This document shows, in pieces, positions 9,623 to 24,332 of a stretch of 64,000 nt of DNA (within the stretch, counting starts at the first letter, position 1; the number at the start of each line of letters is the position of its first letter). Source of the DNA: Aliiroseovarius sp. (GTDB lineage: Bacteria > Pseudomonadota > Alphaproteobacteria > Rhodobacterales > Rhodobacteraceae); assembly GCF_030148435.1 (NCBI RefSeq), contig NZ_JASBTN010000081.1, positions 124,001-188,000 of the forward strand. Reading direction: 5' to 3'. A model generated the notes under the pieces. That model was not told the origin of the DNA. It ran no database searches and worked only from the letters and a program-made list of their open reading frames with translations. Both the position numbers and the translations under genes were made by a program.

Positions 9623-10371
9623 GCATGAAGCTGGCAGTTGTGACCGGCGCCGCCCGAGGGATTGGCCTCGCCACCGCGAAACTCTTCCTTGAGGAGGGCT
9701 GGCAGGTCGCGATGATCGACCGGGATGGGCCCGCCCTGGGGGCGGCCTGCGAAGGATTGGAGGGCGTTCTGCCGATCCTCTGTGACGTCTCGCGACCCGA
9801 TCAAGTCGCGGCGATGGTGGAGGAGATCATGTCCGGTCCCGGCCGCATCGACGCGCTGGTAAACAACGCCGGAGTGGCAGATTTCGGCCCAATCGCCGAG
9901 ACCGACCTGGCGCGTTGGCGCCGGGTGATGGAAACGAACCTGGACGGGGTGTTCCTGACCTCGCAGGCCTGTCTGGAGGCGCTGAAATCGTCAAACGGCG
10001 CAATCGTCAATATCGGCTCGATCTCTGGACACCGCGCCAGCACCCTGCGCGTGGCCTATGGCACGTCGAAGGCCGCGGTCATGCATCTGACCCAGCAGCA
10101 GGCGGCAGAACTGGGCGAGTTCGGCATCCGCGCCAACTGTGTCTGCCCCGGCCCGGTGCGCACCAAATTGGCCATGGCCGTGCATACGCAGGACATTATC
10201 GACGCCTATCACGACGCCATCCCTCTGAATCGTTATGGTTCTGAACGGGAGATCGCTGAGGTCATAACCTTCCTCTGCTCGGACAGGGCGTCCTACGTTA
10301 CCGGTCAGATCGTCAGTGTGGACGGTGGTTTCGAAAGCACAGGCATCGGGCTGCCTGCACTCAGGTCATAG
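9619..10371 (+). CDS. SDR-family NAD(P)-dependent oxidoreductase
   Basis: Classical short-chain dehydrogenase of about 250 aa. The cofactor motif TGAARGIG, NNAG, the catalytic Ser in IGSIS and YGTSK (Tyr and Lys) are all present, and the C-terminal VDGG is typical. An Asp after beta-2 (MIDRD) favours NAD(H) over NADP(H). The ATG at 9619 overlaps the hemF stop as ATGA; ATGs at 9613 and 9625 are also in frame. The substrate is not predictable from sequence; coupling to hemF does not by itself imply a role in haem synthesis. The gene converges on hemE. Confidence 0.85.
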   Translation: MSMKLAVVTGAARGIGLATAKLFLEEGWQVAMIDRDGPALGAACEGLEGVLPILCDVSRPDQVAAMVEEIMSGPGRIDALVNNAGVADFGPIAETDLARWRRVMETNLDGVFLTSQACLEALKSSNGAIVNIGSISGHRASTLRVAYGTSKAAVMHLTQQQAAELGEFGIRANCVCPGPVRTKLAMAVHTQDIIDAYHDAIPLNRYGSEREIAEVITFLCSDRASYVTGQIVSVDGGFESTGIGLPALRS

Positions 10372-10389
10372 AAATTTCCGACCGGCAAT

Positions 10390-11418
10390 TCAGCCCTCGC
10401 GTACCGTGTCGATCATGCGTTGCACGTTGTCGGGGTCCGCGTCCGGGGTGATGCCATGGCCCAGGTTGAAGATATGCGGGCCGTTCGACAGGGCCTTGCA
10501 AATCCGCCTGGTCTCGTCGACCAGATCCTGACCACCCGTCACCATGTGCGACGAGGCCAGGTTGCCCTGCACACAGCCGTCCACCTGCACATTGGCGGCG
10601 GCCCATTCGGCCGAGACCGAGTTGTCCAGCGCGACGCAGTCCGCGCCGGTCGCCTTCGCAAACCCGATGTAACCGTCGCCCGCCTCGCGCGGGAAGGCGA
10701 TGACGGGAATGCCCGGGTGGCGTGCTTTCAGCGCCTGGGTGATCTCGCGGGCCGGTTCCAGCGCGTATTTCACGAAGGCTTCGCCCTTCAGCGAGCCCGC
10801 CCAGCTGTCGAAGATCTTCACGACTTCCGCACCCGCTTCGATCTGCTTGGACAGGTATTCGATGGTGGCCTTGGTCAGCGTGGTGATCAGCGCGTCGAAT
10901 ACCTCGGGGTTTTCTTCGCGCAGCGCATGGGCCGGCCCCTGATCCTTGGTGCCTTTGCCAGCAATCATGTAGGTGGCGACAGTCCACGGCGCACCGGCGA
11001 AACCGATCAGGGTGGTTTCCTTCGGCAGCTCGCGCGACAGGATGCGGACCGTTTCGTAGATCGGGTTCAGCACCGCGTCGATCTCGTCGATCGGTTTCAG
11101 CCGGGCCAGGCCATCGGCATCCGTGATGGTCGACAGGCGCGGGCCCTCGCCGGTGACAAACCACAGGTCGGCCCCCAGCGCCTGGGGCAATAGCAGGATA
11201 TCCGCAAACAGGATGGCGGCATCGAAGCCATAGCGGCGGATCGGCTGCAGCGTGACCTCGGCGGCCAGCTCCGAATTGTAACACAGCGACAGAAAATCCC
11301 CGGCCTGGGCCCGCGTGGCGCGGTATTCCGGCAGATAGCGGCCCGCCTGGCGCATCATCCAGATCGGAGGCGTGGGCAGGGTCTCACCGGCAAGGGCGCG
11401 CAGGATAGTCTTGGTCAT
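10390..11418 (-). CDS. hemE: Uroporphyrinogen decarboxylase
   Basis: Cytoplasmic enzyme that removes the four acetate carboxyls of uroporphyrinogen III to give coproporphyrinogen III; 342 aa. The N-terminal signature [17 protein letters not shown] carries the substrate-binding Arg residues, and [13 protein letters not shown] is the second family signature. NLGHGI near the C-terminus holds the conserved His. A GAGGA ribosome site precedes the ATG at 11418. It is divergently arranged with hemC, with 116 bases between the two starts, a layout seen in other Rhodobacteraceae and allowing shared control. Confidence 0.96.
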
Positions 11419-11534
11419 GGGGTCGTCCTCGTTCGCGTTGTCTCATGCGTGGTGGGCCACACGTAGCGCGATGTCAAGCCGGGCACTTGATGTAGGTTAT
11501 GGACAGGCCCTTTTGTCGCGTCTAAACGGTGGCC

Positions 11535-12491
11535 ATGGTGAGCAATCTTCCGACCCCCGCCGAACCCCTGAAAATCGGCACCCGCGGTTCGCCGCTGGCG
11601 CTGGCCCAGGCCCATGAGACCCGCGCGCGCCTGATGGCGGCCTTCGAACTGCCCGAGGAGGCGTTCGTGATCGTGGTAATCAAGACCACCGGCGACGACC
11701 GCGCGCTGATCGACGCGGACCGCCCGTTGAAGGAGATCGGCAACAAGGGGCTCTTTACCAAGGAGATCGAGGAGGCGATGCTGTCGGGCGACATCGACAT
11801 CGCCGTCCACTCGATGAAGGATATGCCGGTCGAGCAGCCCGACGGGCTGGTGCTGGACTGCTACCTGCCGCGCGAGGATACGCGCGATGCTTTCGTTTCG
11901 TTGAAATACAAGGCGATTTCGGACCTGCCGGAGGGCGCGGTGGTCGGCACTTCGTCGCTGCGGCGCAAGGCGCAGCTGCTCAATCGACGCCCGGACCTGA
12001 CCATTGTCGAGTTTCGCGGCAACGTGCAGACCCGCCTGAAAAAGCTGGGCGATAACGTGGCCGAGGCGACCTTCCTTGCCATGGCCGGTCTGAACCGCCT
12101 GGGCATGGATGACGTGCCGAAGACCGCTATCCCGACCGGGGACATGCTGAACGCCGTGGCCCAGGGGGCCATTGGCATCGAACGCCGCGAGGATGACACC
12201 CGCGCCAAGGAGATGCTGACCGCAATCCACGACCACGAAACCGGACTGCGCCTGGCCGCCGAACGCGCCTTCCTGGGCGCTCTGGACGGCTCCTGCGAGA
12301 CGCCCATCGCGGGGCTTGCCACGCTGGAGGGTGAGACCCTGACCCTCAAGGGGGAAATCCTGCGCACGGACGGTTCCGAAGCACTGGCGGATCAGATCAC
12401 CGGCCCCACCGCCGACGGCCCCACCCTGGGCCGCCAACTGGCCGAAACCCTGCTGGCGCGTGCCGGCAAAGGCTTCTTCGACTGGAAATAG
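11535..12491 (+). CDS. hemC: Hydroxymethylbilane synthase (porphobilinogen deaminase)
   Basis: Cytoplasmic enzyme that polymerises four porphobilinogens into hydroxymethylbilane on a dipyrromethane cofactor; 318 aa. Cofactor attachment is to Cys254 in GSCETP. The family signatures IGTRGSPLALAQ, SMKDMP and GTSSLRR are present. The ATG at 11535 gives the conventional start; a GTG two codons earlier (11529) is an alternative. Divergent from hemE. The 322 bases after its stop contain no gene; they hold one copy of a dispersed repeat (12724-12761). Confidence 0.95.
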   Translation: MVSNLPTPAEPLKIGTRGSPLALAQAHETRARLMAAFELPEEAFVIVVIKTTGDDRALIDADRPLKEIGNKGLFTKEIEEAMLSGDIDIAVHSMKDMPVEQPDGLVLDCYLPREDTRDAFVSLKYKAISDLPEGAVVGTSSLRRKAQLLNRRPDLTIVEFRGNVQTRLKKLGDNVAEATFLAMAGLNRLGMDDVPKTAIPTGDMLNAVAQGAIGIERREDDTRAKEMLTAIHDHETGLRLAAERAFLGALDGSCETPIAGLATLEGETLTLKGEILRTDGSEALADQITGPTADGPTLGRQLAETLLARAGKGFFDWK

Positions 12492-12723
12492 ACCGCTCGC
12501 CATGCCGGGGATGCGGCGGGTGTCGCACAGGCCTCCCCGCCGCGTCCGCTGACTGGATGACCCTAAGTGCAGGGCCTTACGGATGGCGGTCCGGCCCCGG
12601 GCGAGTTCGTCAAGGCGATTCCCTTCGAAAATTGCCTCTATACGCAAAGGGTGCCTCTACGCCGCAAGGCCCTGCTATCGAATGGATCCTGAGCCCTCCT
12701 GTTGCATCCCGGCACGATGCAGC

Positions 12724-12761
12724 CTTTCATCTTTCAAGAATATCCCCGCCGGAGGCAGAAA
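12724..12761 (+). repeat. Dispersed intergenic repeat, short form (copy 1)
   Basis: About 38 bp centred on CCCGCCGGAGGC, lying in the gap between the convergent hemC and FAD-oxidase genes. Its reverse complement matches 38945-38985 closely: both read CCTCCGGCGGGGATATT followed within a few bases by AAAGATGAAAG. The left half (CTTTCATCTTTCAAGAATATCC) also resembles the first 22 bases of the two long repeats at 41054 and 44644. A GC-rich stem-forming stretch follows (12762-12800). The remaining bases of the 12492-12813 gap show no gene. Confidence 0.7.
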
Positions 12762-12813
12762 TCGGAGCGCAAGCGACGCCGCGCGCCTGCGCGGCTCCCC
12801 CGTTGCCGTCACG

Positions 12814-14214
12814 TCAGTCCGGCAGGACTTTACCCGGGTTCATGATCCCCTTCGGGTCCAGGGCCGACTTGATCAGCCGCATTACCCGCAGCGCCACCGG
12901 ATCCTTTCGGCGTGCCATTGACGGTTTCTTCGACAAGCCGATCCCATGCTCGGCGGAAAAGGATCCGCCAAGCTCCAGCACCACGTCCTCGACCGCCTGC
13001 ATGACCGCGTCGGCAAGGCCCGCGTCGCTGGGGTAGACCGTGTAGTGGATATTGCCGTCGCCCAGATGCGCCACGCTCAAGGCCCCGGCGCCCGGGTCGA
13101 TCCCGGGCAGCACGGCCTCCATGCGTGTAAAGAAGGCGCCGACCCGGTCCAGCGGTACCGAGATGTCATTGTTGACCAGCGGATGACGCCCCAGACAGAC
13201 CTCGGCGGCGGCCTCGCGCCGGGCCCACATCTCGGCCCGCTGGCTGTCGTTCCGGGCAATCACCGCGTCCCGCACGGTGCCTTCTTCCAGCATCTCGCCC
13301 AGCACTTCTTCCAGGTGGGACACCACCGGAACCGAACCATCCGGGCCCGGCGTTGCATCACGCGGGGCGGTGGCGCCGGCCTCGACCAGGATGTTGACAT
13401 CGTGGCGAACGTCAAAAGGCGGACGGGCCCCGGTATGCGCGACATGGGCGTCGATATAGGCGCCGGGCATGTATTCGAACGCCTCGACGGCCCCGCCAGT
13501 TGCCTCCTGCAGCCGGTTCAGCAGCGCCAGCGCCTCGCTCAACCCCGGCGCGGCGACCATCGCGGTCGCATAGGCGCGCGGGGCGGGGGAGAGTTTCAGA
13601 ACCGCCCCGGTGATCACGCCCAATGTGCCTTCGGCCCCGATGAACAGATCCTTGAGGTCGTACCCGGTATTGTCCTTGTGAAGCTCGCTCATCAGGTTCA
13701 ACACCTGGCCATCAGGCAGCACGACCTCCAGCCCCAGACACAGGTCGCGCGTATTGCCGTATCGCAGCACGTTCGAGCCCCCCGCATTGGTGGCAAGCAT
13801 GCCGCCCAGCGTGCAGGAGCCCTTCGCACCAAATGTCATCGGAAAGCTCAGCCCATGCCCGGCGGCGGCCTCGTGCAGAACCTCCAGCACCACGCCCGCC
13901 TCGACGATGGCCAGCCGCGCCTCGGCCCGGATCTCGCGAATGCTGCGCATCCGGTCGAGTGACAGGGCAATCGCGCCTTCGGCAAACGCCCCTCCCGAAA
14001 GGCCCGTATTGCCACCCACCGGCACAACCGGGGTTCCGCTTTCCTGCGCCAATGCCATGACGCGGCTGACCTCCTGGGTGGAGCCGGGCCGCACCACGCA
14101 AAGCGGTGCGCCCCTGTACTTGCCGATCCAGTCCGAGGTCCACGGGGCGGCATCAGTGCCGGTCAGGACAAGGGCCGGGTCCAGCACGCCCTGCAGTCGG
14201 GTCACGATATCCAT
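12814..14214 (-). CDS. FAD-binding D-2-hydroxyacid dehydrogenase (D-2-hydroxyglutarate dehydrogenase/GlcD-like)
   Basis: Flavoprotein of the FAD-linked oxidase C family, 466 aa, oxidising a D-2-hydroxyacid such as D-2-hydroxyglutarate, D-lactate or glycolate. The N-terminal PCMH FAD domain shows PVGGNTGLSGG (about 60-71) and NTGYDLKDLFIGAEGTLGVIT. The C-terminal domain has the metal/substrate His pair in VAHLGDGNIHY and the AEHGIG motif. The combination of LRYGNTRD and NNTGYDL-like residues is closest in my reading to D-2-hydroxyglutarate dehydrogenases. It is a single gene, convergent with hemC, and divergent from lolC/E. Confidence 0.82.
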   Translation of the reverse strand: MDIVTRLQGVLDPALVLTGTDAAPWTSDWIGKYRGAPLCVVRPGSTQEVSRVMALAQESGTPVVPVGGNTGLSGGAFAEGAIALSLDRMRSIREIRAEARLAIVEAGVVLEVLHEAAAGHGLSFPMTFGAKGSCTLGGMLATNAGGSNVLRYGNTRDLCLGLEVVLPDGQVLNLMSELHKDNTGYDLKDLFIGAEGTLGVITGAVLKLSPAPRAYATAMVAAPGLSEALALLNRLQEATGGAVEAFEYMPGAYIDAHVAHTGARPPFDVRHDVNILVEAGATAPRDATPGPDGSVPVVSHLEEVLGEMLEEGTVRDAVIARNDSQRAEMWARREAAAEVCLGRHPLVNNDISVPLDRVGAFFTRMEAVLPGIDPGAGALSVAHLGDGNIHYTVYPSDAGLADAVMQAVEDVVLELGGSFSAEHGIGLSKKPSMARRKDPVALRVMRLIKSALDPKGIMNPGKVLPD

Positions 14215-14332
14215 GGGGTCTCCCGGTTTTTACACCACGCTATCTTGCTGATACCGCTCTCACAACCGCCCTTCTCCTTGACCTTCCCCGCCCCACGCCC
14301 CACTTTGCAACCCACAGAGGCAAGGAGCAGAA

Positions 14333-15619
14333 ATGGCCCGCAGCACAGCCCCCTTTTCCCGCTTCGAGTGGATGATCGCCTGGCGCTATCTGCGCGCCCG
14401 CAAGGCCGAGGGCGGGGTCTCGACGATGACCTGGATCAGCCTTGTCGGCATTACCCTGGCCGTCGCTGCCCTGATCATTACCCTTGCCGTGCGCACCGGT
14501 TTTCGCGAGGAATTCGTCGATACGATCCTGGGGGCGAACGCCCATGTGACCGTGTTTTCGCAGACATTTATGACCGAGGAGGGGCGGACCGAACGAACCA
14601 TCCCCGATTTCCGGGGCTGGGCCGAGCGCATCGCCCAGGTGCCCGGCGTCACCCGCGCCGCGCCGCTGGTCAAGGGGCAGGTCATGGTCAACAAGGGGCA
14701 GGTCAATGCGGGGGTGGAGGTCTATGGCATCGCCTATGACGACCTTCTGACCATCCCGCGCATCGCCCAGCCGGAACGTGCCGTGGGCGACATTCGTGAC
14801 TTTGACAAGGGCATCGCCATCGGTTCCGGCGTGGCCCAGGCGCTGGGTGTCACCGTGGGGGACAGGATCAAGGTGATCTCGCCCAACGGGGTCAAGACCG
14901 CCTTCGGCACTTCGCCCCGCGTCAATGCCTACGAAGTCACCTATATCTTTACCGCCGGGCGCTGGGACATCGACCGCACCCGCGTCTACCTGCCCTTTGC
15001 CGAGGCGCAGAGCTTCTTCAACCGCGAGGGCGTGGCCGACGAGATCGAGGTCATGGTGGCCGAGCCCGAAGGCATCGATCAGTTGCTCATGCCGATTATG
15101 CGTGCCGCCGACCCGCTGGCCACCGTCTGGACCTGGCGCGACCGCTCCGGCGCCTTCCTGCGCGCGCTCGACATGGAGGACAACGTGATGTTCATCATCC
15201 TGTCGATCCTCGTTCTGATCGCCTCGATGAACATCATATCGGGCCTGATCATGCTGGTGAAAAACAAGGGCCGCGACATTGGCATCCTACGCACCATGGG
15301 CCTGACCGAGGGCTCGGTCCTGCGGGTCTTTTTCCTCTGCGGGGCGGTCACGGGGGTGGTCGGGACGATCCTGGGCGTGATCCTGGGTTGCCTCTTTGCG
15401 CTCAACATCGACAGCGTGTTTTCCCTGGTGAACTACCTGGCTGGCGGCGGGGTCTGGGAGCCATCAATTCGCGGCATCTACCGCCTGCCGGCGAAGCTCG
15501 AATTCTGGGATGTGGCCTCGGCCATCTCGCTTTCGCTCTTCCTCAGTTTCGTTGTCACCATCTTCCCGGCGCGCCGCGCCGCCCGCATGAACCCGGTGGA
15601 GGCCCTGCGCTATGAATGA
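14333..15619 (+). CDS. lolC: LolC/LolE-family lipoprotein-releasing permease
   Basis: Inner-membrane subunit of LolCDE, which extracts outer-membrane lipoproteins and passes them to LolA; 428 aa. There is one membrane segment near residues 38-60, a large periplasmic domain (about 65-275), and three C-terminal segments in the FtsX-like region (about 285-420), ending with the conserved [11 protein letters not shown]. As in many alphaproteobacteria there is a single LolC/E-type gene rather than separate lolC and lolE, so a homodimer is likely. The stop overlaps the start of lolD by 8 bases. Confidence 0.9.
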
Positions 15620-16295
15620 CGCCGTTCTCCGCCTGGACGGGATCGAGAAGATTTACAACCGTGGCCTGGCCTCCGAAGTCGCCGTCCTGCGCGGTGCCTC
15701 GCTGGAGATCGCACGGGGCGAGGTCGTCGCCCTGGTCGCCCCCTCCGGGGCGGGGAAATCGACGCTATTGCACATCGCGGGACTGCTGGACACGGCGGAT
15801 GCAGGCGCCGTGCAGATCGCGGGCCAGGACATGACCCACAAAAGCGACCGCCGCCGCACCGCCACCCGCCGCGAAGAGGTCGGTTTCGTCTATCAGTTCC
15901 ACCATTTGCTGCCCGAGTTCACGGCGGCCGAGAACGTGGTCCTGCCGCAGTTGGCGAACGGCGTGGGGCAGGGCGAGGCGAACACCCGCGCTCTGGACCT
16001 GCTGACCCGCGTGGACGTCGCCAAACGCGCCACCCACCGCCCGGCGGAACTGTCAGGCGGCGAACAACAACGCGTCGCCGTCTGCCGCGCGCTCGCCAAC
16101 AGCCCCGCGCTTTTGCTGGCGGACGAACCCACCGGCAATCTCGACCCCGAGACCTCCGACACCGTGTTCGAAACCCTCATGGAGCTGGTCCGAAACACCG
16201 GCCTCTCCGCCCTCATCGCCACCCACAACCTGGAGCTGGCGGCGCGGATGGACCGCGTGCTGCGGTTGGAGGGTGGGGTGGTTACGGAGGGGTAG
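15612..16295 (+). CDS. lolD: LolD lipoprotein-releasing ABC transporter ATPase
   Basis: Cytoplasmic ATPase of the LolCDE complex, 227 aa. Walker A is APSGAGKST (43-51), the ABC signature is LSGGEQQR and Walker B LLLADEP, followed by TGNLD as in the MacB/LolD/FtsE group. The start overlaps the upstream permease gene by 8 bases, so the pair is co-translated. Walker A begins with Ala-Pro instead of the more common Gly-xx, a variation known in LolD proteins. Downstream are a repeat element and the end of the HEPN-like gene on the other strand. Confidence 0.93.
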
Positions 16296-16359
16296 GATTC
16301 CCCGCCGAAGTTGGTGTTGAGGAACTGCCCTTTCCACCGCCCCGCCCGGCGGCACCGCC

Positions 16360-16489
16360 GGGCAGCGCCCGACCCTCCCCACGGGAGGGCGCTACCGCGA
16401 TGTTGTGATCTTGATGGATGGTTGCATGTTACGCACCCACCGAGCCTCAATCACCCATAGAGGCGCCCACCCAGGGTCGGGCGCTGCCC
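16360..16489. repeat. 130-bp intergenic element bounded by 16-bp perfect inverted repeats
   Basis: Bases 16360-16375 (GGGCAGCGCCCGACCC) and 16474-16489 are exact reverse complements. Inside the left arm is a smaller hairpin (16366-16391, CGCCC...GGGCG with an inner CTCCC/GGGAG stem). The element fills the gap between lolD and the stop of the HEPN-like gene, ending six bases before it. No reading frame is carried. It could be a non-autonomous mobile or REP-like element, or a bidirectional terminator for the convergent genes; no target duplication is obvious at the edges. Confidence 0.7.
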
Positions 16490-16495
16490 TTTGCA

Positions 16496-17305
16496 TCAAA
16501 GTTCTAGGAAACTCTTAAGACTCTCCTTATCGGCTTTGTTGAATCTGACCATCTCAAGGACCCATTCCAGAACATCGGCTCCGATATGGTCTACTTGGCC
16601 GAACCTTACGAAATGCGTATTTCGACTGTAGGTTCCTGCGGAAAACTCCCCGTTATCAAGGGCACCTTGCTCAAAGAAGGAAAAATTTCTCCAGCGAAAG
16701 GCCTCCGTTCTCTCGCCGTTCATCTGGTCTCGTGTTGATCTAAGTGGTGCGAAGTCAGAATGAGGTTGATAGTCAGGTTCCGCCAGAAGGTGTTCTCTGT
16801 ATGTGGCGCCATAGCGAGGGTAAAATACAAAATCCAGAGGGACAGTGACACGCCGTATTTGGAATACCAGCTCATCGAACTTGTGGAGATCAAATAGGTC
16901 CACGAAAAGACCGTGGGACCTATAGCGGTTTTCAGGAGTACCGTTGTCTTCGACCCGTTTCAGAAAATGTGACGTTGGTTCGAAGCGACCCGTAGGGGAA
17001 AGAAAACGCACTGGAAAAAAACTTGGAGGGCACAACAAATCCGGCACAAGTCGCTCAGCTACTCCTTTCAGCTTCCGATACATTTTGTTCAGATCACCGT
17101 GGCCAAAATTTGCCACGCGGATATCATTAAGAAGCAACGCGCATTTTAGGTATTTCTCAAGAGCTTGTTGTGAGCTCCACGCGAATTGGTGTTGAAGCCC
17201 CACCTTTGCTGCCCAACGCGCCACCAGATAGTCTTCGTCGGCCGCGTCCAAGAAGAGACTGTAGGCGAGCCCCCTCGCTTTTGGGTTTTCATTTGGAATG
17301 CTCAC
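16496..17305 (-). CDS. HEPN-like domain protein, function unknown (accessory, lower GC)
   Basis: 269 aa. Residues 20-80 resemble a HEPN domain: an early helix with DEDYLVAR, then SSQQALEKYLKCALL and GHGDLNKMYRKL. A canonical HEPN RNase motif (R-4 to 6 residues-H) is not clear; the nearest is RYRSH at 127-131. The rest (100-269) is unassigned. Base composition drops to roughly 42-50% G+C in sampled lines, against over 60% for the neighbours, pointing to transfer. The start is a GTG directly after the parE TGA, with GGAGGAG about 12 bases upstream inside parE, so expression should follow parE. No partner nucleotidyltransferase is visible. Confidence 0.6.
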   Translation of the reverse strand: MSIPNENPKARGLAYSLFLDAADEDYLVARWAAKVGLQHQFAWSSQQALEKYLKCALLLNDIRVANFGHGDLNKMYRKLKGVAERLVPDLLCPPSFFPVRFLSPTGRFEPTSHFLKRVEDNGTPENRYRSHGLFVDLFDLHKFDELVFQIRRVTVPLDFVFYPRYGATYREHLLAEPDYQPHSDFAPLRSTRDQMNGERTEAFRWRNFSFFEQGALDNGEFSAGTYSRNTHFVRFGQVDHIGADVLEWVLEMVRFNKADKESLKSFLEL

Positions 17306-19261
17306 TCAAACATCCAACTCCTCCACAAACCGCGCGTTCTCCTGGATATACTGGAACCGCAGTTCGGGTTTCTTGCCCATGAGCTGCTCGACCAAAGCGC
17401 CGGTTTCGCCGGGTTCGTCCTCGTCGATCGTGACCCGGATCAGGGTGCGCGATGCCGGGTCCATGGTGGTCTCTTTCAGGTCTTTCGCATCCATCTCGCC
17501 CAGGCCCTTGAAGCGGCTGACGTCGATTTTACCCTTGCCGCCCAGCCCCTTCTCCAGCCATGCGTCGCGTTCGGCCTCGTCCACGCAATAGACCCGTTTG
17601 GCGCCCTGGGTCAGGCGGAACAGCGGCGGGCAGGCGAGGTACAGGTGGCCCGTGTCGATCATCGGGCGCATCTGGGTGAAGAAGAAGGTCATTAGCAGAG
17701 ACGCAATATGCGCGCCGTCGACGTCGGCGTCGGTCATGATGATGATCTTGTCATAGCGCAGGTCGTCGACGTTGAACTTGGTGCCCAGCCCGACGCCAAG
17801 CGCCTGGGTGAGGTCGTTGATCTCGGCGTTGGACCCCAGCTTGGAGGACGCCGCGCCCAGCACGTTCAGGATCTTGCCGCGCAGGGGGAGGAGCGCCTGT
17901 GTCTTGCGGTTGCGCGCCATCTTGGCGGAGCCGCCCGCGCTGTCGCCCTCGACGATGAAGAGCTCGGTGCCCTCGCGGTTGGTGGCGGAACAATCGGTCA
18001 GCTTGCCCGGCAGGCGCAGCTTCTTGGTGGCAGTCTTGCGCTGGGTCTCTTTCTCCTGCTTGCGGCGCAGGCGTTCCTCGGCGCGCAGGACCAGGAAGTC
18101 CAGGATCGCGCCCGCGGATTTGTTATCCGCCGCCAGCCAGTTGTCGAAATGGTCGCGCACGGATTGTTCGACCATCTTGGCCGCAGCCTCGGTCGAAAGG
18201 CGGTCCTTGGTCTGGCCGACAAAGGCCGGGTCGGCGATGAAGCACGACACCAAGGCACAGCCGCCGACCATCAGGTCGTCGCGGGTGATCTGGGCGGCCT
18301 TCTTGTTGCCGACAAGCTCGCCATAGGCCTTGATCCCCTTCAGGATCGCGGCCCAGAAGCCGGTGACGTGGGTGCCGCCTTCGGGCGTGGGCACCGTGTT
18401 GCAGTAACTCTGGATGAAGCCGTCGCGGGTGGGCGTCCAGTTGATCGCCCATTCGACATAGCCTGCCTCGCCGAATTTGTCGCGGAATTCGACCTTGCCG
18501 CCGAAGGGGTTGTCGGCGTAGGTGGTCGCCCCACCCAAGGTTTCCTTGAGATAGTCGGACAACCCGCCGGGGAAATGGAAGGTCGCCTCGGTCGGGGTTT
18601 CGCCGTCATTGACGTGGCTTTTCCAGCGGATTTCCACGCCCGAGAACAGATAGGCCTTGGAGCGGGCAAGGGTGAACAGGCGTTTGGGCTTGAACCGGTG
18701 GTGGCCGAAGATGTCCGCGTCCGCGTGAAAGGTGACTTCGGTGCCGCGCCGGTTGGGGGCGGCACCGACCTTTTCCACCCCGCCAAGGGGGATGCCGCGT
18801 GAGAAACGCTGTTCGAACATCTCCTTGTTCTTGGCGACGCGCACGACCATCGAATCCGACAGGGCGTTCACCACCGACGAGCCCACCCCGTGCAGCCCGC
18901 CCGAGGTCTGATAGGCCTTGCCCGAGAACTTGCCGCCCGCATGCAGGGTGCACAGGATCACCTCCAGGGCGGATTTGCCCGGGAACTTCGGGTGTGGATC
19001 AATCGGAATTCCGCGCCCATTGTCGGTGATTGTTACCGAACAATCCTCGTTCAGCGTGACTTCGATCCGGTTGGCATGGCCCGCAACGGCCTCGTCCATG
19101 GAGTTGTCGAGGATTTCCGCCACCATGTGGTGCAGCGCGCGTTCGTCCGTGCCGCCGATATACATGCCCGGACGCTGGCGCACCGGCTCCAGACCCTCCA
19201 GAACTTCGATGGAGGAGGCGTCGTAAGTCTCGGCCCCGGCGGGCGTCAGGAGGTCGTTCAT
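17306..19261 (-). CDS. parE: DNA topoisomerase IV subunit B
   Basis: ATPase subunit of topoisomerase IV, which decatenates daughter chromosomes with ParC; 651 aa. The GHKL ATPase domain shows EILDNSMDEA and the ATP-lid region GGLHGVGSSVVNALS; the Toprim domain shows EGDSAGGSAK, PLRGKILNV and the metal-binding DADVDGAHI. The length and the FVEELDV end fit ParE rather than GyrB, which carries an extra insert and is longer. The stop is abutted by the GTG of the HEPN-like gene with no spacer. A TPR protein gene lies upstream on the same strand. Confidence 0.94.
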   Translation of the reverse strand: MNDLLTPAGAETYDASSIEVLEGLEPVRQRPGMYIGGTDERALHHMVAEILDNSMDEAVAGHANRIEVTLNEDCSVTITDNGRGIPIDPHPKFPGKSALEVILCTLHAGGKFSGKAYQTSGGLHGVGSSVVNALSDSMVVRVAKNKEMFEQRFSRGIPLGGVEKVGAAPNRRGTEVTFHADADIFGHHRFKPKRLFTLARSKAYLFSGVEIRWKSHVNDGETPTEATFHFPGGLSDYLKETLGGATTYADNPFGGKVEFRDKFGEAGYVEWAINWTPTRDGFIQSYCNTVPTPEGGTHVTGFWAAILKGIKAYGELVGNKKAAQITRDDLMVGGCALVSCFIADPAFVGQTKDRLSTEAAAKMVEQSVRDHFDNWLAADNKSAGAILDFLVLRAEERLRRKQEKETQRKTATKKLRLPGKLTDCSATNREGTELFIVEGDSAGGSAKMARNRKTQALLPLRGKILNVLGAASSKLGSNAEINDLTQALGVGLGTKFNVDDLRYDKIIIMTDADVDGAHIASLLMTFFFTQMRPMIDTGHLYLACPPLFRLTQGAKRVYCVDEAERDAWLEKGLGGKGKIDVSRFKGLGEMDAKDLKETTMDPASRTLIRVTIDEDEPGETGALVEQLMGKKPELRFQYIQENARFVEELDV

Positions 19262-19351
19262 GCGGGCTGCTCGTCGCTTGTCGTTGGTTGAGGCGTAGTA
19301 TGCCCCGAGCCGATGGGGGGGCGCAATGCATGAAACCGGCGTGGGGCGGTC

Positions 19352-20554
19352 TCAGAAGGACAGGACGCCCGCGTTGTAGGTTTCCAGGTTCAGCTGTGTC
19401 GGGCCATCGCCAACCTGTTCCAGTTCGATATGGGCGGGCGGATGACCCAGTCCGCTGGCCAGATCGCCGGCCGCGCCGCCCCCGCCGGGCAGGACGTTGA
19501 CGCGCACGCCGCCGCCGAAGTTGTCAAAGCTCGCCCCGCCCGAAGGCGACCAGTGTCCATCGCCGCGCACGTAGGGCGTGACCGGTCCTATGCTGGGGCC
19601 CGCCTCGACCCGCACGTCGACGCTGCCGTCACCATTGACCTTCACATGGGCCGAAAAGCCCGGCACGCCGATCGAGAAGCCCGCGTTCAGGCCCGGGATC
19701 ATGATACCGTAATCGGGGAAATCCTCGCTGCAGTCATAGGAGGTCGGATAGGGTTTGCCTTCCTGGCAGGCCAGTTGCGCCGAGGAGTTCTCGATCTCGC
19801 AGGTGACTGACTGGATGCCGCCGATAATGCTTTTCGGGCAGATTTCCTGGCAACGGAAGTTCACGTTGCAAGTGGGGCCGACATTGGCCTGATAGGCGCC
19901 CTGACTGGCGGGCAGGCTGCCGACGGCGGTCAGGAGCGCCATGCCGTTGGGTTCCAGCGCGTGCGCGCGGGCCAGCGCGGCGGCTGCGCCATCCGTGTCG
20001 CCCGCGGCTTCGCGTGCGCGGGCGAGGTTGGTCCAGAAGAGCGGCTCGTCAGGGGCCAGCTCCGTGGCCCGGGTGGCGGCGGCAACCGCTGCGGCCGCGT
20101 CGCCGGCGGCGCGTAAGGCATTGGCCAGGGTGTTGTGGAATGCGGCATTGTCCGGGGCCATGTCCACGGCGGTCTGCGCAGCGGCGCGTGCGGCTTCGAG
20201 CCACTCGGCCGGGGCCCCGCCCGCCGCGTGAAGTTCAGTCACCAGGGCTGCAAAATTGTTCAATGAAACGGGGTCGGTCGGGTCTGCCCCCGCCGCCGTG
20301 CCGAAGAACCAGGCGCTTCGATCGAAATGGCGGCGCGTGTAGAGCAGGTGCCCAATCGTGTCGCCGCTCACCCCATCGGGCAGGTCGTCAATGAGCGCGG
20401 TAAAGGCCTGGGCCTCGCCATCGGGAAAACCCGCGCCCAGCCCCGCAACCGTTTCCGAAATCCCCGTTGCCAGATTTTGCGCGGTGGCGGATTGCGCTGC
20501 TCCCAGGGTCAGGATCCCGATCCCCAGGGCCAATCCGAGATGCGTGATTTGCAT
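19352..20554 (-). CDS. Secreted tetratricopeptide-repeat protein
   Basis: 400 aa with a Sec signal peptide (about 1-25, ending SATAQ). Residues 65-205 form three to four TPR units of the AxxxxxxAPDNAxFHNTLANAL kind, a protein-docking fold. The C-terminal half is different: a Cys-rich patch around residues 220-270 (six Cys, including CxxxC and CEIE) and then a Gly/Pro-rich region with repeated valine-rich strands and a GGGG stretch. I do not know the family of this second half. It lies between parE and truA on the same strand, but with gaps of about 70-90 bases, so an operon is uncertain. Confidence 0.75.
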   Translation of the reverse strand: MQITHLGLALGIGILTLGAAQSATAQNLATGISETVAGLGAGFPDGEAQAFTALIDDLPDGVSGDTIGHLLYTRRHFDRSAWFFGTAAGADPTDPVSLNNFAALVTELHAAGGAPAEWLEAARAAAQTAVDMAPDNAAFHNTLANALRAAGDAAAAVAAATRATELAPDEPLFWTNLARAREAAGDTDGAAAALARAHALEPNGMALLTAVGSLPASQGAYQANVGPTCNVNFRCQEICPKSIIGGIQSVTCEIENSSAQLACQEGKPYPTSYDCSEDFPDYGIMIPGLNAGFSIGVPGFSAHVKVNGDGSVDVRVEAGPSIGPVTPYVRGDGHWSPSGGASFDNFGGGVRVNVLPGGGGAAGDLASGLGHPPAHIELEQVGDGPTQLNLETYNAGVLSF

Positions 20555-20628
20555 GTTCCATCCTCCCCTCGTTCAGGGGAAGTATAGCGCAGCAAGTGGT
20601 GTTCACCCAAATTCGGCCGTAGGCCGGG

Positions 20629-21405
20629 TCAGGCTGGTGGTGTGAACGGGTCCACCGGATAGGCCACATCGGCCAGATACAGCCCCTCGGGAGGGCACAC
20701 GGGGCCACAGGCGGCGCGGTCGCGGGCGTCAAGGGCGACGCGGATATCGTCAGGCGCCCAGGTGCCGCCGCCGACCTGCTCCAGCGATCCGACAAAGCTG
20801 CGCACCTGGTTGTGCAGAAAGCTGCGGGCGCGAATGGTGAAACGGTATTCGATGCCGTGGGGATAGTCGTGTTCGGTGATCGACAACTCGTCCAGCGTCT
20901 TTACCGGACTATCGGCCTGGCAATAGGTCGACCGGAAAGTGGTGAAGTCGTGACGCCCCACAAGGTGGGCAGACCCTTCCCGCATGGCCTCGACGTCCAG
21001 CCTGCGCACAACACGCCAGGCCAGGCCCTTGTCGTGGGTCAGCGGCGCACGGCGTTGGATCAGGCGGAACAGGTATTGCCGTTCGGTGGCCGAAAAGCGC
21101 GCGTGGAAATCGTCATCCACCCGGGCGCAGGCGGTGATCGCGACCGGATTGGGCTTCAGGTGGTAGTTCAGCGCCTCGGACAGGCGGAACGGGTCCCAGT
21201 TCTTTGCCATGTCGCAATGGGCGACCTGGCCGGTTGCGTGCACGCCCGCGTCCGTCCGGCCCGCTGCGGCGATGGTGTGTGCGCCCGGTTCCAGGCGGCA
21301 CAGGGCTGCCTCGATCGCACCCTGCACCGAGGGCTGGTCCTTCTGGCGCTGCCATCCGGCGAAAGGCGCGCCGTGATATTCGACTTTCAGGGCATATCTG
21401 GGCAT
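20629..21405 (-). CDS. truA: tRNA pseudouridine(38-40) synthase TruA
   Basis: Converts U38, U39 and U40 in the anticodon arm of tRNAs to pseudouridine; 258 aa. The catalytic Asp is D52 in GRTDAGVHA, and the downstream blocks FHARFSA and [13 protein letters not shown] are the usual TruA signatures. The ATG at 21405 is chosen since [12 protein letters not shown] is the standard beginning; a longer frame to 21459 exists without support. The gene is followed in the same direction by nothing closer than the TPR gene. Confidence 0.95.
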
Positions 21406-21475
21406 GGGGCGGGCATAGCTTGCGGCGGGTGTCGGGGCAATCCCCGATCCACGGGGCAATCGGGGCAGGAAATTT

Positions 21476-22381
21476 CTAGGAGCGTTTCATGAAGGCCAGT
21501 GTCGCCTGGGCCAGTTCCGCGCCCACGTCCTCCTGTAGGAAGTGGCCGGCATTCGCCAGGACCTGGTGTGGTTGCCCCACCGCCCCCGGCATGAGGGTCT
21601 GAAACACCCTGTCCACGCCCGCCATGACCTTGTCATCGGCGCCAAACACAGTCAGCACGGGAATATCAAGGCCGCGCAACACCTCCCACGCGGCGCGGTT
21701 GGGCTCGGCCGCGGGATCCTCGGGGGAAGAGGGCACAAGCATGGGAAATTGCCGCGCACCCTGTTTGTAGCGTTCGTCCGGGAAGGGCGCGTTATAGGCG
21801 GCAACCTCGGCATGGGTCAGTTTCGTGGTCGTGCCGCCATGAACGATCCTGCCCGCATTGAACTCCGGGGTGGACTGGGAAAACGCGCGCCAGGCTTCGA
21901 ACGCGGGGCCAAGGGGCCGATCGCCGGTCGGCAGCGCCGTGTTTGCCACCACGATGCGGGCAAAGCGCTCCGGCATCTCCGCCACCAGCCTGAGGCCGAC
22001 CAACCCGCCCCAGTCCTGACAGACCAGCGTGATGCCGGTCAGATCGACCTGCCGCAGCCAATCGCCCATCCAGTCCACGTGTCGCTGGTAGCTGTAGTCA
22101 GCCCGTTCCGTCGGCTTGTCAGAACGCCCAAAGCCGACAAGGTCGGGGGCAATCGCCCGATACCCGGCGGTCGTGAAGATCGGGATCATATGGCGGTAGA
22201 GATAGCACCATGACGGTTCACCGTGCAGGAGCAGGACGGGCGCGGCATCCTGCGACCCTTCATCCAGATAGTGGACCCGGAGCTTGCCTCCTTCGGTGTC
22301 GTCCACCCAGGCATAGCGTGCGGCAAAATCGAAATCCGGCAGATCGGCAAATCGGTCATCCGGTGTGCGCAGATACTCCAT
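21476..22381 (-). CDS. Haloalkane dehalogenase-like alpha/beta hydrolase
   Basis: 301 aa. The fold is alpha/beta hydrolase with the motif set of haloalkane dehalogenases of the DhlA/DhmA type: HGEPSW (53-58), nucleophile D123 followed by halide-binding W124 in CQDWGG, an acid at D249/D250 (GADD) and H280 in NAGH. Cap-domain W164 (EAW) fits the second halide-binding Trp of subfamily I. An Asp nucleophile with a following Trp separates this from esterases (Ser) and favours a C-halogen hydrolase; an epoxide hydrolase is the main alternative. A trpS terminator lies upstream at 22483-22510. Confidence 0.82.
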
Positions 22382-22482
22382 GTGTCCCCCTGGTCTTGGA
22401 CGGTTGTCTCAGACTGGGAACAATGGGCGGGCCTGTCCACATTTTTCCGGCAGGCGCCACCTGCGTCGTGGGGATGCGAAAC

Positions 22483-22510
22483 AAAAAACGCAGCCGGGAA
22501 GCTGCGCTTT
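22483..22510 (-). terminator. Rho-independent terminator of trpS
   Basis: On the minus strand a CGCAGC/GCTGCG hairpin-type stem (arms 22489-22494 and 22501-22506, six-base loop) is followed by six T residues. It starts 24 bases after the trpS stop codon, and separates trpS from the dehalogenase gene. Confidence 0.85.
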
Positions 22511-22533
22511 CAGGTTGTCGGGTGAATGCAGGT

Positions 22534-23553
22534 TCAGCGCGAGCGCACCAGCCCGACGATGTCATAGGTTTTCTGCAAAATCGGCTGGGCGATCGCATCG
22601 GCCTTTTCGGACCCCTTGGCAAGGATCGCGTCGATCTCGTCGGGTTTCTTCATCAGCCGCGCCATTTCCTGGCTGATCGGGGCCAGTTTCTCGACCGCCA
22701 GGTCGGCCAGGGCCGGTTTGAACCTTCCCCAGCCCGCGCCAGCGTATTCCGAGATCACGGCCTCCGGTGTTACCTCGGAGAGGGACGCGTAGATGTCCAC
22801 GAGGTTGCGCGCTTCGGGACGGTCCTTCAGGCCATCCAGTGTCTCGGGCAGGGGCTCGGGATCGGTCTTGGCCTTCTTGAACTTCTTGGCGATCTTGTCG
22901 GCGTCATCGGTCATGTTGATGCGCTCCATGTCGCTTTCGCCGGACTTGGACATCTTCTTGGTCCCGTCGCGCAGGTTCATTACCCGGGTGGCGGGGCCCT
23001 CGATGATCGGCTCGCAGAGCGGGAAGAAGTCCCCCGCCTTGAAGTCGTGGTTGAACTTCGAGGCAATGTCGCGGGTCAGTTCGACATGCTGTTTCTGGTC
23101 CTCGCCCACCGGCACGTGGGTCGCGTGGTACAGAAGAATGTCGGCGGCCATCAGCGAGGGGTAGGCGTAAAGGCCCAGTGAAACCTGTTCGGCGTTCTTG
23201 CCGGCCTTGTCCTTGAACTGGGTCATGCGGTTCATCCAGCCGACGCGGGCCACGCAGTTGAATATCCAGCCCAGTTCCGCGTGGGCGGGCACCTGGCTCT
23301 GGTTGAACAGAATCGACTGGCTGGGATCGATGCCCGAGGCGATGAAGCCCGCGGCCACTTCGCGCGTGGCATCCTTCAGCACCGCCGGATCCTGCCAGAC
23401 GGTGATCGCATGCAGGTCGACGACGCAGTAGATGGTCTCGAACTCCTGGCCCTGCATGTCCACGAAACGCTTGATCGCGCCGAGGTAATTGCCAAGGGTC
23501 AGGCCGCCTGAAGGCTTGATACCCGAAAAGACGCGCGGGGTATGGGTGGTCAT
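22534..23553 (-). CDS. trpS: Tryptophanyl-tRNA synthetase
   Basis: Class Ic aminoacyl-tRNA synthetase charging tRNA-Trp; 339 aa. The HIGH-equivalent lies in [12 protein letters not shown] near residue 18, and the KMSKS loop is exact ([10 protein letters not shown]). The conserved block around [15 protein letters not shown], which binds tryptophan and adenylate, is present. Size matches bacterial TrpRS. A strong terminator follows at 22483-22510, so it is the last gene of its transcript. It is divergent from the rhomboid-like gene. Confidence 0.97.
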
Positions 23554-23645
23554 GGGACGCTCCCGTCTGGATTTCCTGTCCGGGGTCGCTTACCCATGTG
23601 GCGAAGTCCCGTCAAGGAAACGGGCGGTTTCAGGAGCCTTGCGCC

Positions 23646-24332
23646 ATGTCGAGTGACCCCAATGCCTCGCCGCTTAACCCGCTGCCGCCGATCGTGGTGG
23701 CCCTCACGGTGTTTCTTGTCGGAGTCGAGCTGGTGTTCCAGGCGGGTGAGAACGGACTGGCGGGCGGCCCCGCCGCGACCGGCTGGCGGATCGAGGCTCT
23801 GGAGCGCTGGGGATTCTACGAGCCCCTGTTCGACTGGATGCTGACCAATGGCATCTGGCGCTGGGATTACGCGGTACGCTTCGTGACCTACCCGTTCGTG
23901 CATGGCCATTATACCCAGCTGATCTTCGTGATCGTGTTTCTGCTGGCCCTGGGCAAGATGGTGGGGGAGCTGTTTTCGCCCCTGGCCGTTCTGGTGATCT
24001 TCTTCGGTTCCTCCATCGTGGGAGCGCTGGCCTATGGGCTGGTCTGGGATACGCGGGTCATGCTGGTGGGGGGCTTTCCGGCGGTCTACGGGCTGATCGG
24101 CGCGTATTCCTTCCTATTGTGGGTCAAACTGGCGGGAAACGGTGAAAACCGGCTGATGGCGTTTCGGCTCATAGCCTTCCTGATGGGGATTCAGTTGGTG
24201 TTTTCGCTGTTCACCGGAGGAAGCAAGGACTGGGTCGCCGACATTGCCGGTTTTGCCACCGGTTTCTCCCTGTCCTTCGTGGTGGCCCCGGGGGGGGTGA
24301 AACGCGCTCTGGAGTTGGTGCGGCGTCGCTGA
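23646..24332 (+). CDS. Rhomboid-fold membrane protein lacking the catalytic residues
   Basis: 228 aa, six predicted membrane segments, with rhomboid topology. The active-site positions of rhomboid proteases are replaced: GxSG reads GGFP (142-145, Ser to Phe), the catalytic His of the last helix is D199 (DIAGF), and the oxyanion-hole HLxxN reads QLIFV (91-95). H86 is kept. It is therefore most likely a pseudoprotease, in the sense of iRhoms/derlins, perhaps binding membrane proteins. The ATG at 23646 is chosen over 23598 because the upstream codons overlap the trpS promoter region. It is convergent with murJ. Confidence 0.75.
   Translation: MSSDPNASPLNPLPPIVVALTVFLVGVELVFQAGENGLAGGPAATGWRIEALERWGFYEPLFDWMLTNGIWRWDYAVRFVTYPFVHGHYTQLIFVIVFLLALGKMVGELFSPLAVLVIFFGSSIVGALAYGLVWDTRVMLVGGFPAVYGLIGAYSFLLWVKLAGNGENRLMAFRLIAFLMGIQLVFSLFTGGSKDWVADIAGFATGFSLSFVVAPGGVKRALELVRRR

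Follow-up and report, generated by a model that had tools for sequence, protein, structure and literature searches.

Our analysis of a 64,000-nucleotide stretch of Aliiroseovarius DNA (the window) points to the 3' end of parE as a slot for solo, partly defence-like genes, which are probably exchanged by recombination through the tail of parE. The gene behind parE in the window is the present occupant of this slot, which is family-wide, and an occupied genome as a rule has one short gene of low G+C at the parE stop codon. The occupants (cargos) belong to many families, part of them HEPN- or Abi-like or matching single-gene candidates for phage defence, and most of them without a recognised domain.

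The cargo gene of the window lies at 16496-17305 on the minus strand, begins with GTG and encodes a solo protein of 269 aa, as given by the list of open reading frames (ORFs), the structure model and profile matches. Its start codon (17305-17303) adjoins the TGA stop codon of parE (17308-17306) without a gap. The gene at 17306-19261 (minus strand), which we take to be parE (topoisomerase IV subunit B), anchors the left border of the slot and shows at most 87% identity in the family genomes; its protein matches the gyrB model with a score below that model's cut-off. The last 27 nt of parE (17306-17332, minus strand) form a tail with raised synonymous conservation in cargo-bearing genomes. Past the slot lies lolD (15612-16295, plus strand), a convergent conserved gene; among 30 stretches read behind parE, eight contained a lolD 69-74% identical. 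The G+C content is 0.491 for the cargo gene, compared with 0.636 for parE, 0.683 for lolD and 0.645 for the whole window, and the sharp drop in the G+C profile over 10000-24000 falls at the cargo gene. No second gene is present among the ORFs of the window slot. The first-pass annotation had described a solo gene of low G+C set with its GTG directly against the stop codon of an essential gene, and these measurements bear that description out. In the comparison across relatives that it had proposed, the HEPN gene was found in 12 of 295 family genomes and so is not universal, nor is its composition normal.

Next to the cargo gene, a palindromic intergenic element (16355-16495) forms the right border of the slot in the window. 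The inverted repeat reported in the first pass is real, while its arms, given there as 16 bp long and 98 bp apart, are in fact two perfect 17-nt arms (16360-16376 and 16473-16489) with 96 nt between them. Six bases separate the arm from the stop codon of the cargo gene, as had been stated. Folded as RNA, the repeat gave z = -6.0 against 200 shuffles, so that it exceeds chance, and an Rfam scan of 14000-20000 returned one match only, which was below threshold. A BLAST search for further copies, a check that the first pass had proposed, gave 20 matches in the repeat's own genome, merging into 12 elements of 117-141 bp. These elements are intergenic and mostly adjoin genes of normal G+C; ten of the 12 were aligned, and their ends are conserved and their middle is variable. 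The repeat, being dispersed over intergenic places, is no partner peculiar to this gene, and the earlier idea of gene and repeat as one private unit was discarded in view of its 12 copies in the genome. By eye, palindromic elements of like style also follow several other cargos in other genera.

Occupancy and turnover of the site behind parE

Relatives that lack the HEPN gene showed other genes of low G+C in this place, and one test was therefore applied to all. We scored a genome as occupied when it had an ORF of at least 80 aa whose start or end fell in the interval from -45 to +250 nt relative to the parE stop and whose G+C was at least 0.09 under that of the parE end. Since G+C served for detection, the low G+C of the cargos is in part built into the test, which overlooks cargos of host-like composition. 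As the family we took the Rhodobacteraceae in their wide sense, judged by the titles of named loci; it comprised 295 genomes, 274 of them with a parE match. We fetched 125 genomes, dropped G087 and G139 for too little sequence behind parE, and kept six genomes chosen for carrying the HEPN gene out of the occupancy rate, which left 117 unselected genomes. A low-G+C ORF stood at the parE stop in 57 of these 117 genomes (56 of 116 without the window), in a sample of one genome per genus that is not random among the 274, as the window's relatives and the most similar parE ends were taken first, and that favours parE ends like the window's. Relatives with a contig end near parE, such as G012, G016 and G032, are not among the sample. 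G022, with a broken parE end, was counted in the rate and omitted from motif counts; the weakest cargo calls, which have a far start, are G022, G026, G073 and G237.

In 49 of the 57 occupied genomes the cargo fell in the interval of -45 to +21 nt around the parE stop, and 42 cargos were on the same strand as parE and 15 on the opposite one. Five of the six selected HEPN genomes also passed the test, giving 62 cargos. These formed 46 BLASTP clusters at E 1e-4 (45 at E 0.01), some of which have a Pfam domain in common. Their median length was 230 aa, and their median G+C was 0.454, compared with 0.603 for the parE end. The start codon overlaps the parE stop by four bases in 16 of the 62 cargos, so that cargo translation could be coupled to parE. 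Two loci counted as unoccupied carry the tail motif described below. One, L262 in G208, has very low G+C and no long ORF and looks like a decayed gene. The other, L179 in G013, contains by eye a transposase-like ORF, and a farther low-G+C gene there resembles the cargo of G005.

The same test was applied to the ends of three control genes, for each of which the 30 best-scoring loci of the 60-61 genomes matched were taken, two gyrB and three valS loci being unusable. An occupied site was found in 1/30 for uvrA, 0/28 for gyrB and 0/27 for valS (1/85 in total), and the difference from parE was significant (Fisher p = 7e-16), with control genes that are not matched to parE for operon position. The sole control hit, L287 in G054, is an ORF of 203 aa and low G+C that overlaps the stop codon of uvrA. 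For parE in a second alphaproteobacterial family, 30 loci were fetched from 38 matches and 29 were used, none of which was occupied; among 454 background windows, two were of low G+C.

These counts bear on the view that the place is merely permissive, the parE end facing another gene so that insertions are harmless and nothing is targeted. In the window, as in those relatives where lolD follows parE, the two genes are convergent, which agrees with such a view. However, the fetched regions contained 52 further gene ends, 26 of them convergent, and not one was occupied; the border at the stop codon, the tail signature and the clade of parE-linked cargos also argue against it, making it improbable.

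Turnover was then read within one genus, in seven Phaeobacter genomes including G075, which a 100% plasmid match identifies as Phaeobacter porticola. Each of the seven had one or more ORFs of low G+C behind parE, with product lengths of 122 plus 292, 221, 260, 212 (opposite strand), 133, 272 and 337 aa; two of these ORFs start 49 and 137 nt behind the parE stop. No match between genomes was found among these cargos at E 0.01, either as DNA on either strand or as protein. The DNA similarity of the genomes extended through parE to its stop (-4 to +7) and resumed past the cargo in six of the seven, at a palindromic element, though not in G359. An element in the style of that in the window marks the right border in most Phaeobacter slots. 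A core-bounded site with an excess of transferred genes and with turnover, one mark of a hotspot of horizontal gene transfer, was thus found at parE. Searches of the literature, covering few subscription journals, did not turn up any description of a gene slot linked to parE.

The parE tail and the movement of cargo genes

In occupied genomes the end of parE reads CGGTTYGTKGAGGAGYTGGATGTTT, with several synonymous positions nearly fixed. The frequency of GAT was 0.97 in occupied genomes and 0.51 in others, and that of the last G of CGG was 1.00 and 0.44, respectively. The motif GAGGAGYTGGATGTTT was present in 43 of 61 occupied tails, compared with 8 of 61 others, and leaving out the selected genomes gave 40/56 and 8/60 (p = 1e-10). 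Since the exact motif is absent from 18 of the 61 occupied tails and present in eight of the 61 others, it is neither necessary nor sufficient, and the association is a tendency only. The difference in third-position conservation between the groups averaged 0.27 in the last 10 codons and 0.006 in the remaining parE end; position -34, outside the last 10 codons, also differed strongly (0.33). Two codons inside the conserved stretch (-24 and -21) vary freely, and a recognised sequence therefore fits rather better than plain hitch-hiking.

Three ordinary causes of this signature were considered. A ribosome-binding site of the cargo cannot alone explain it, since it persists where the cargo lies on the opposite strand: GAGGAGYTGGATGTTT occurs in 11 of 15 such tails (p = 1e-5), and GATGTTTRR is kept in 14 of 15, compared with 14 of 61 other tails. 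Codon usage was rejected on the mean difference of 0.006 in the rest of the parE end. Kinship was assessed on a tree of 107 of the 116 genomes, built from parE ends minus the last 39 nt (291 nt, weakly supported). On this tree occupancy required 32 changes against a shuffled mean of 36.0, a value as low being reached in 51 of 500 shuffles; for the motif the figures were 35 and 34.7, with 300 of 500 as low. Both are thus spread in a scattered way through the family, and kinship does not account for the association of motif and occupancy.

The HEPN gene allowed the movement of one cargo family to be followed. Among the 12 family genomes that carry it, seven have it behind parE and five elsewhere; six of the seven have it directly behind, and in G244 it lies about 640 bp further, past two small ORFs. 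A HEPN tree of 72 rows was built, from which the truncated parE-linked loci L082 and L106 were left out. The ten parE-linked rows formed one clade (96/92; 98% of bootstrap trees), and shuffling the linkage labels over the tree gave a mean of 9.6 changes. For these ten, the HEPN alignment rejected the parE topology (AU p = 0.0005) and the parE alignment rejected the HEPN topology. Pairwise identities, 22-46% for HEPN and 75-89% for parE, were uncorrelated (r = -0.27). Several HEPN branches are long, which calls for caution with the tree. A single parE-linked clade together with conflicting trees indicates that HEPN genes move between genera and stay with the slot.

Vertical inheritance, in which an ancestral gene behind parE was lost many times and diverged very fast without any special exchange, would also give one clade of parE-linked HEPN genes, as from a single ancient arrival. 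It is nevertheless highly improbable, because the HEPN and parE trees reject each other, their identities do not correlate, the cargos fall into 46 clusters, and the seven Phaeobacter genomes hold different cargos. A second cargo family was found in 9 of 295 genomes, at parE in five and elsewhere in four, a share at parE that is biased upwards since the query was taken from the slot; the family has split or fragmentary copies in G016, G109 and G274. In G074, a distant HEPN member (L042:8433-9227) starts seven bases past the end of a gene that by eye resembles lipA, and slots may accordingly exist at other 3' ends too.

G244 has a second parE tail copy, 82 bp long and decayed, which immediately precedes the HEPN gene and follows the two other ORFs. 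This suggests that the HEPN gene once adjoined, or travelled with, a parE tail. No other tested genome has a copy that stands out, and duplication of the tail was not found as a general feature. The two small ORFs of G244 (L033:7720-8400) resemble by eye a BrnT/BrnA pair.

The copy in G244 is what a Campbell-type insertion would leave, and it invites the question whether the parE 3' tail is the attachment site of a site-specific cassette system whose recombinase is encoded elsewhere. The tail signature in occupied slots, independent of cargo strand and kinship, the left border at the stop codon and the single-gene cargo (median 230 aa) all agree with this. On the other side, no recombinase or integrase domain was found at E 0.01 among 50 cargo representatives, 36 of which have no domain over the cut-off, and the slot of G013 was the only one in which an ORF looked by eye like a transposase. 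The standout second copy is confined to G244, and no common right-end site besides the dispersed palindromes was seen by eye. We consider such a system unlikely. In its fullest form, the tail would be the landing site of an undescribed cassette system for single, start-codon-coupled, often defensive genes that move one by one between genera, its recombination machinery being either encoded at another place in the cell or brought in by a vehicle such as a gene transfer agent, and this too we regard as unlikely.

We favour homologous exchange, in which cargos would come and go by interchromosomal recombination, the parE tail acting as the left arm and the sequence past the cargo as the right arm. 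Such an exchange would need no integrase among the cargos. Gene transfer agents are known from this bacterial group and could carry such short fragments, and they perhaps carry those exchanged here. Nearly all that is said of the slot comes from one genome per genus, and the recombination events are inferred, none having been observed.

The cargo proteins and the HEPN family

The cargo products were scanned with Pfam using 50 representatives, the HEPN cluster and G237 being left out. The Pfam cut-off was exceeded by 14 of them, with the domains HEPN_AbiU2, AbiTii, three DUF4145, DUF4238, Fic, HTH_25, two DUF2971, two Trypsin_2, RNase_T and VasI. PADLOC on 63 cargos matched PDC-S31 twice, PDC-S48, S45, S23, S42 and S05, and further PD-T7-4 twice, RT-Protease_XI twice, AbiTii and a TIR effector. 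We take the PDC-S models to be single-gene candidates for phage defence. Counted as families and not as cargos, PADLOC gave 25 for the cargos and 27 for 51 host genes, the latter mainly broad ATPase and regulator models. None of the PDC-S, PD-T7-4, RT-Protease_XI, AbiTii or TIR models was among the 25 of these 27 host-gene families that were listed. A defence-like bias among the cargos is likely.

For the protein of the window, Pfam returned PF05168 (HEPN) at E 0.0083 over residues 17-79, which is under the cut-off, and the same model was matched by 50 of 68 HEPN family members at E <= 0.001. An AlphaFold2 model based on the alignment of the 68 members was confident (pLDDT 91.2, pTM 0.90). Its top five structure alignments had Z scores of 10.1, 8.8, 8.4, 7.4 and 6.8 over about residues 11-157, in a range (Z under about 13) that, as the tool warns, can be common for helical bundles; the next was 4.5. 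Three of the five structures (1o3u, 1wol, 6m6u) are HEPN by title, and the other two (1ufb and 2q00) presumably are as well. Foldseek E-values for the model were weak alone (0.35 and up), a Foldseek search against viral structures gave nothing significant, a sequence search of the PDB with the window protein gave no convincing match, and an NCBIfam scan of it gave one match at chance level. The predicted HEPN fold spans about residues 11-157 and is followed by a C-terminal region of about 110 further residues. The HEPN reading of the first pass, to be judged by structure prediction, is thus supported by the confident model, its structural matches and the PF05168 matches of the family.

Invariant residues in the 68 members include W43, Q47, E50, K51, K54, H69, R127, Y128, D144, R151 and N207. 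The window protein has R63-x5-H69, in which H69 is invariant among the 68 members and R63 is not conserved among 12 aligned relatives. The canonical Rx4-6H RNase motif of HEPN proteins is therefore not a trait of this family, in agreement with the earlier remark that the motif is non-canonical. The slot of the window contains no second gene that could be an MNT antitoxin partner, and no nucleotidyltransferase neighbour is listed in four annotated plasmid regions, whose gene table is incomplete. PADLOC 2.0.0 matched 0 families for the window protein and none of the 68 HEPN family members.

An alignment query found relatives of the HEPN protein at 75 genome loci of many phyla and on 11 viral contigs, whereas scans of the genome and viral contigs with the single protein gave no match. 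The gene was also found on nine plasmid records from Bradyrhizobium, Azospirillum, Rahnella and Yersinia, one relative lying in a prophage-like stretch of a Rahnella plasmid. None of the phage records matched it. The G+C of the relatives is mostly under that of their surroundings. On the viral-class contigs (L153-L163) it is about 0.30-0.35, or 0.47 in two, and these relatives are perhaps prophage cargo.

The HEPN protein would most likely be a solo, infection-triggered effector of abortive type, a putative defence role. It may cut RNA, although the usual motif is not conserved. We also considered a HEPN-fold regulator that binds RNA or nucleotides without a defence role, for example acting on parE. 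The non-conserved Rx4-6H motif and the lack of any PADLOC match in the HEPN family would suit a regulator of this kind. Its relatives, however, are patchy, of low G+C and found on plasmids, in the Rahnella prophage-like stretch and on viral contigs, and other gene families take the same place behind parE, so that a regulator appears rather unlikely.

Comparison with known systems

Occupied in about half of the sampled genera, the slot offers a simple address for new single-gene defence candidates, and 36 of its 50 scanned occupants have no known domain over the cut-off. It also makes testable a question that would otherwise be difficult to address, namely how single genes without mobile-element machinery reach the same place across genera. 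The tail signature, the seven different occupants in Phaeobacter and the disagreement of the HEPN tree with that of parE provide direct handles on this question.

Integrons insert single-gene cassettes at attI, and Tn7 inserts behind glmS, using the 3' end of an essential gene as its target. The parE slot shares single-gene cargo with integrons; however, no recombinase was identified with its cargos, no integrase domain occurs in the 50 cargo representatives, and the palindromes behind the cargos are dispersed in the window's genome. With Tn7 it shares the 3' end of an essential gene, but neither a transposase nor a transposon end was identified with the cargos.

The window protein resembles PF05168 and the HEPN toxin of MntA-HepT in its predicted helical fold and its conserved W, Q, E, K and H positions. 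It differs from MntA-HepT in having no MNT partner, about 110 extra C-terminal residues and no conserved Rx4-6H motif. Tha, a staphylococcal prophage defence protein, is a HEPN RNase of about 300 aa with a C-terminal HEPN domain and an intact RX4H motif (PMC11087260). Both are single HEPN proteins, and relatives of the window protein also occur on viral-class contigs; compared with the description of Tha, the window protein differs in having its HEPN fold at the N-terminus and in lacking RX4H (PMC11087260).

In Pseudomonas aeruginosa, cDHS1 and cDHS2 are fixed core neighbourhoods that hold different defence systems by strain (PMC10250203). The parE slot is similar in its fixed core-gene neighbourhood with contents that differ between genomes, and the two loci have medians of 26 kb and 6 kb, compared with one gene of about 0.7 kb at parE (PMC10250203). 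The hotspots of Oliveira et al. 2017 were defined within clades at species level, the criterion being an excess per spot of transferred genes; they are bounded by core genes, show rapid gene turnover and need no integrase, and double homologous recombination at their flanks was proposed (PMC5635113). The slot behind parE is like them in being core-bounded, in its turnover, in needing no integrase under the exchange favoured here and in the recombination proposed at its flanks (PMC5635113). It differs in having one gene per genome, one family-wide anchor, a border that coincides with the stop codon and a DNA signature within the tail of the anchor. The parE slot fits as an extreme form of the hotspot idea of Oliveira et al.
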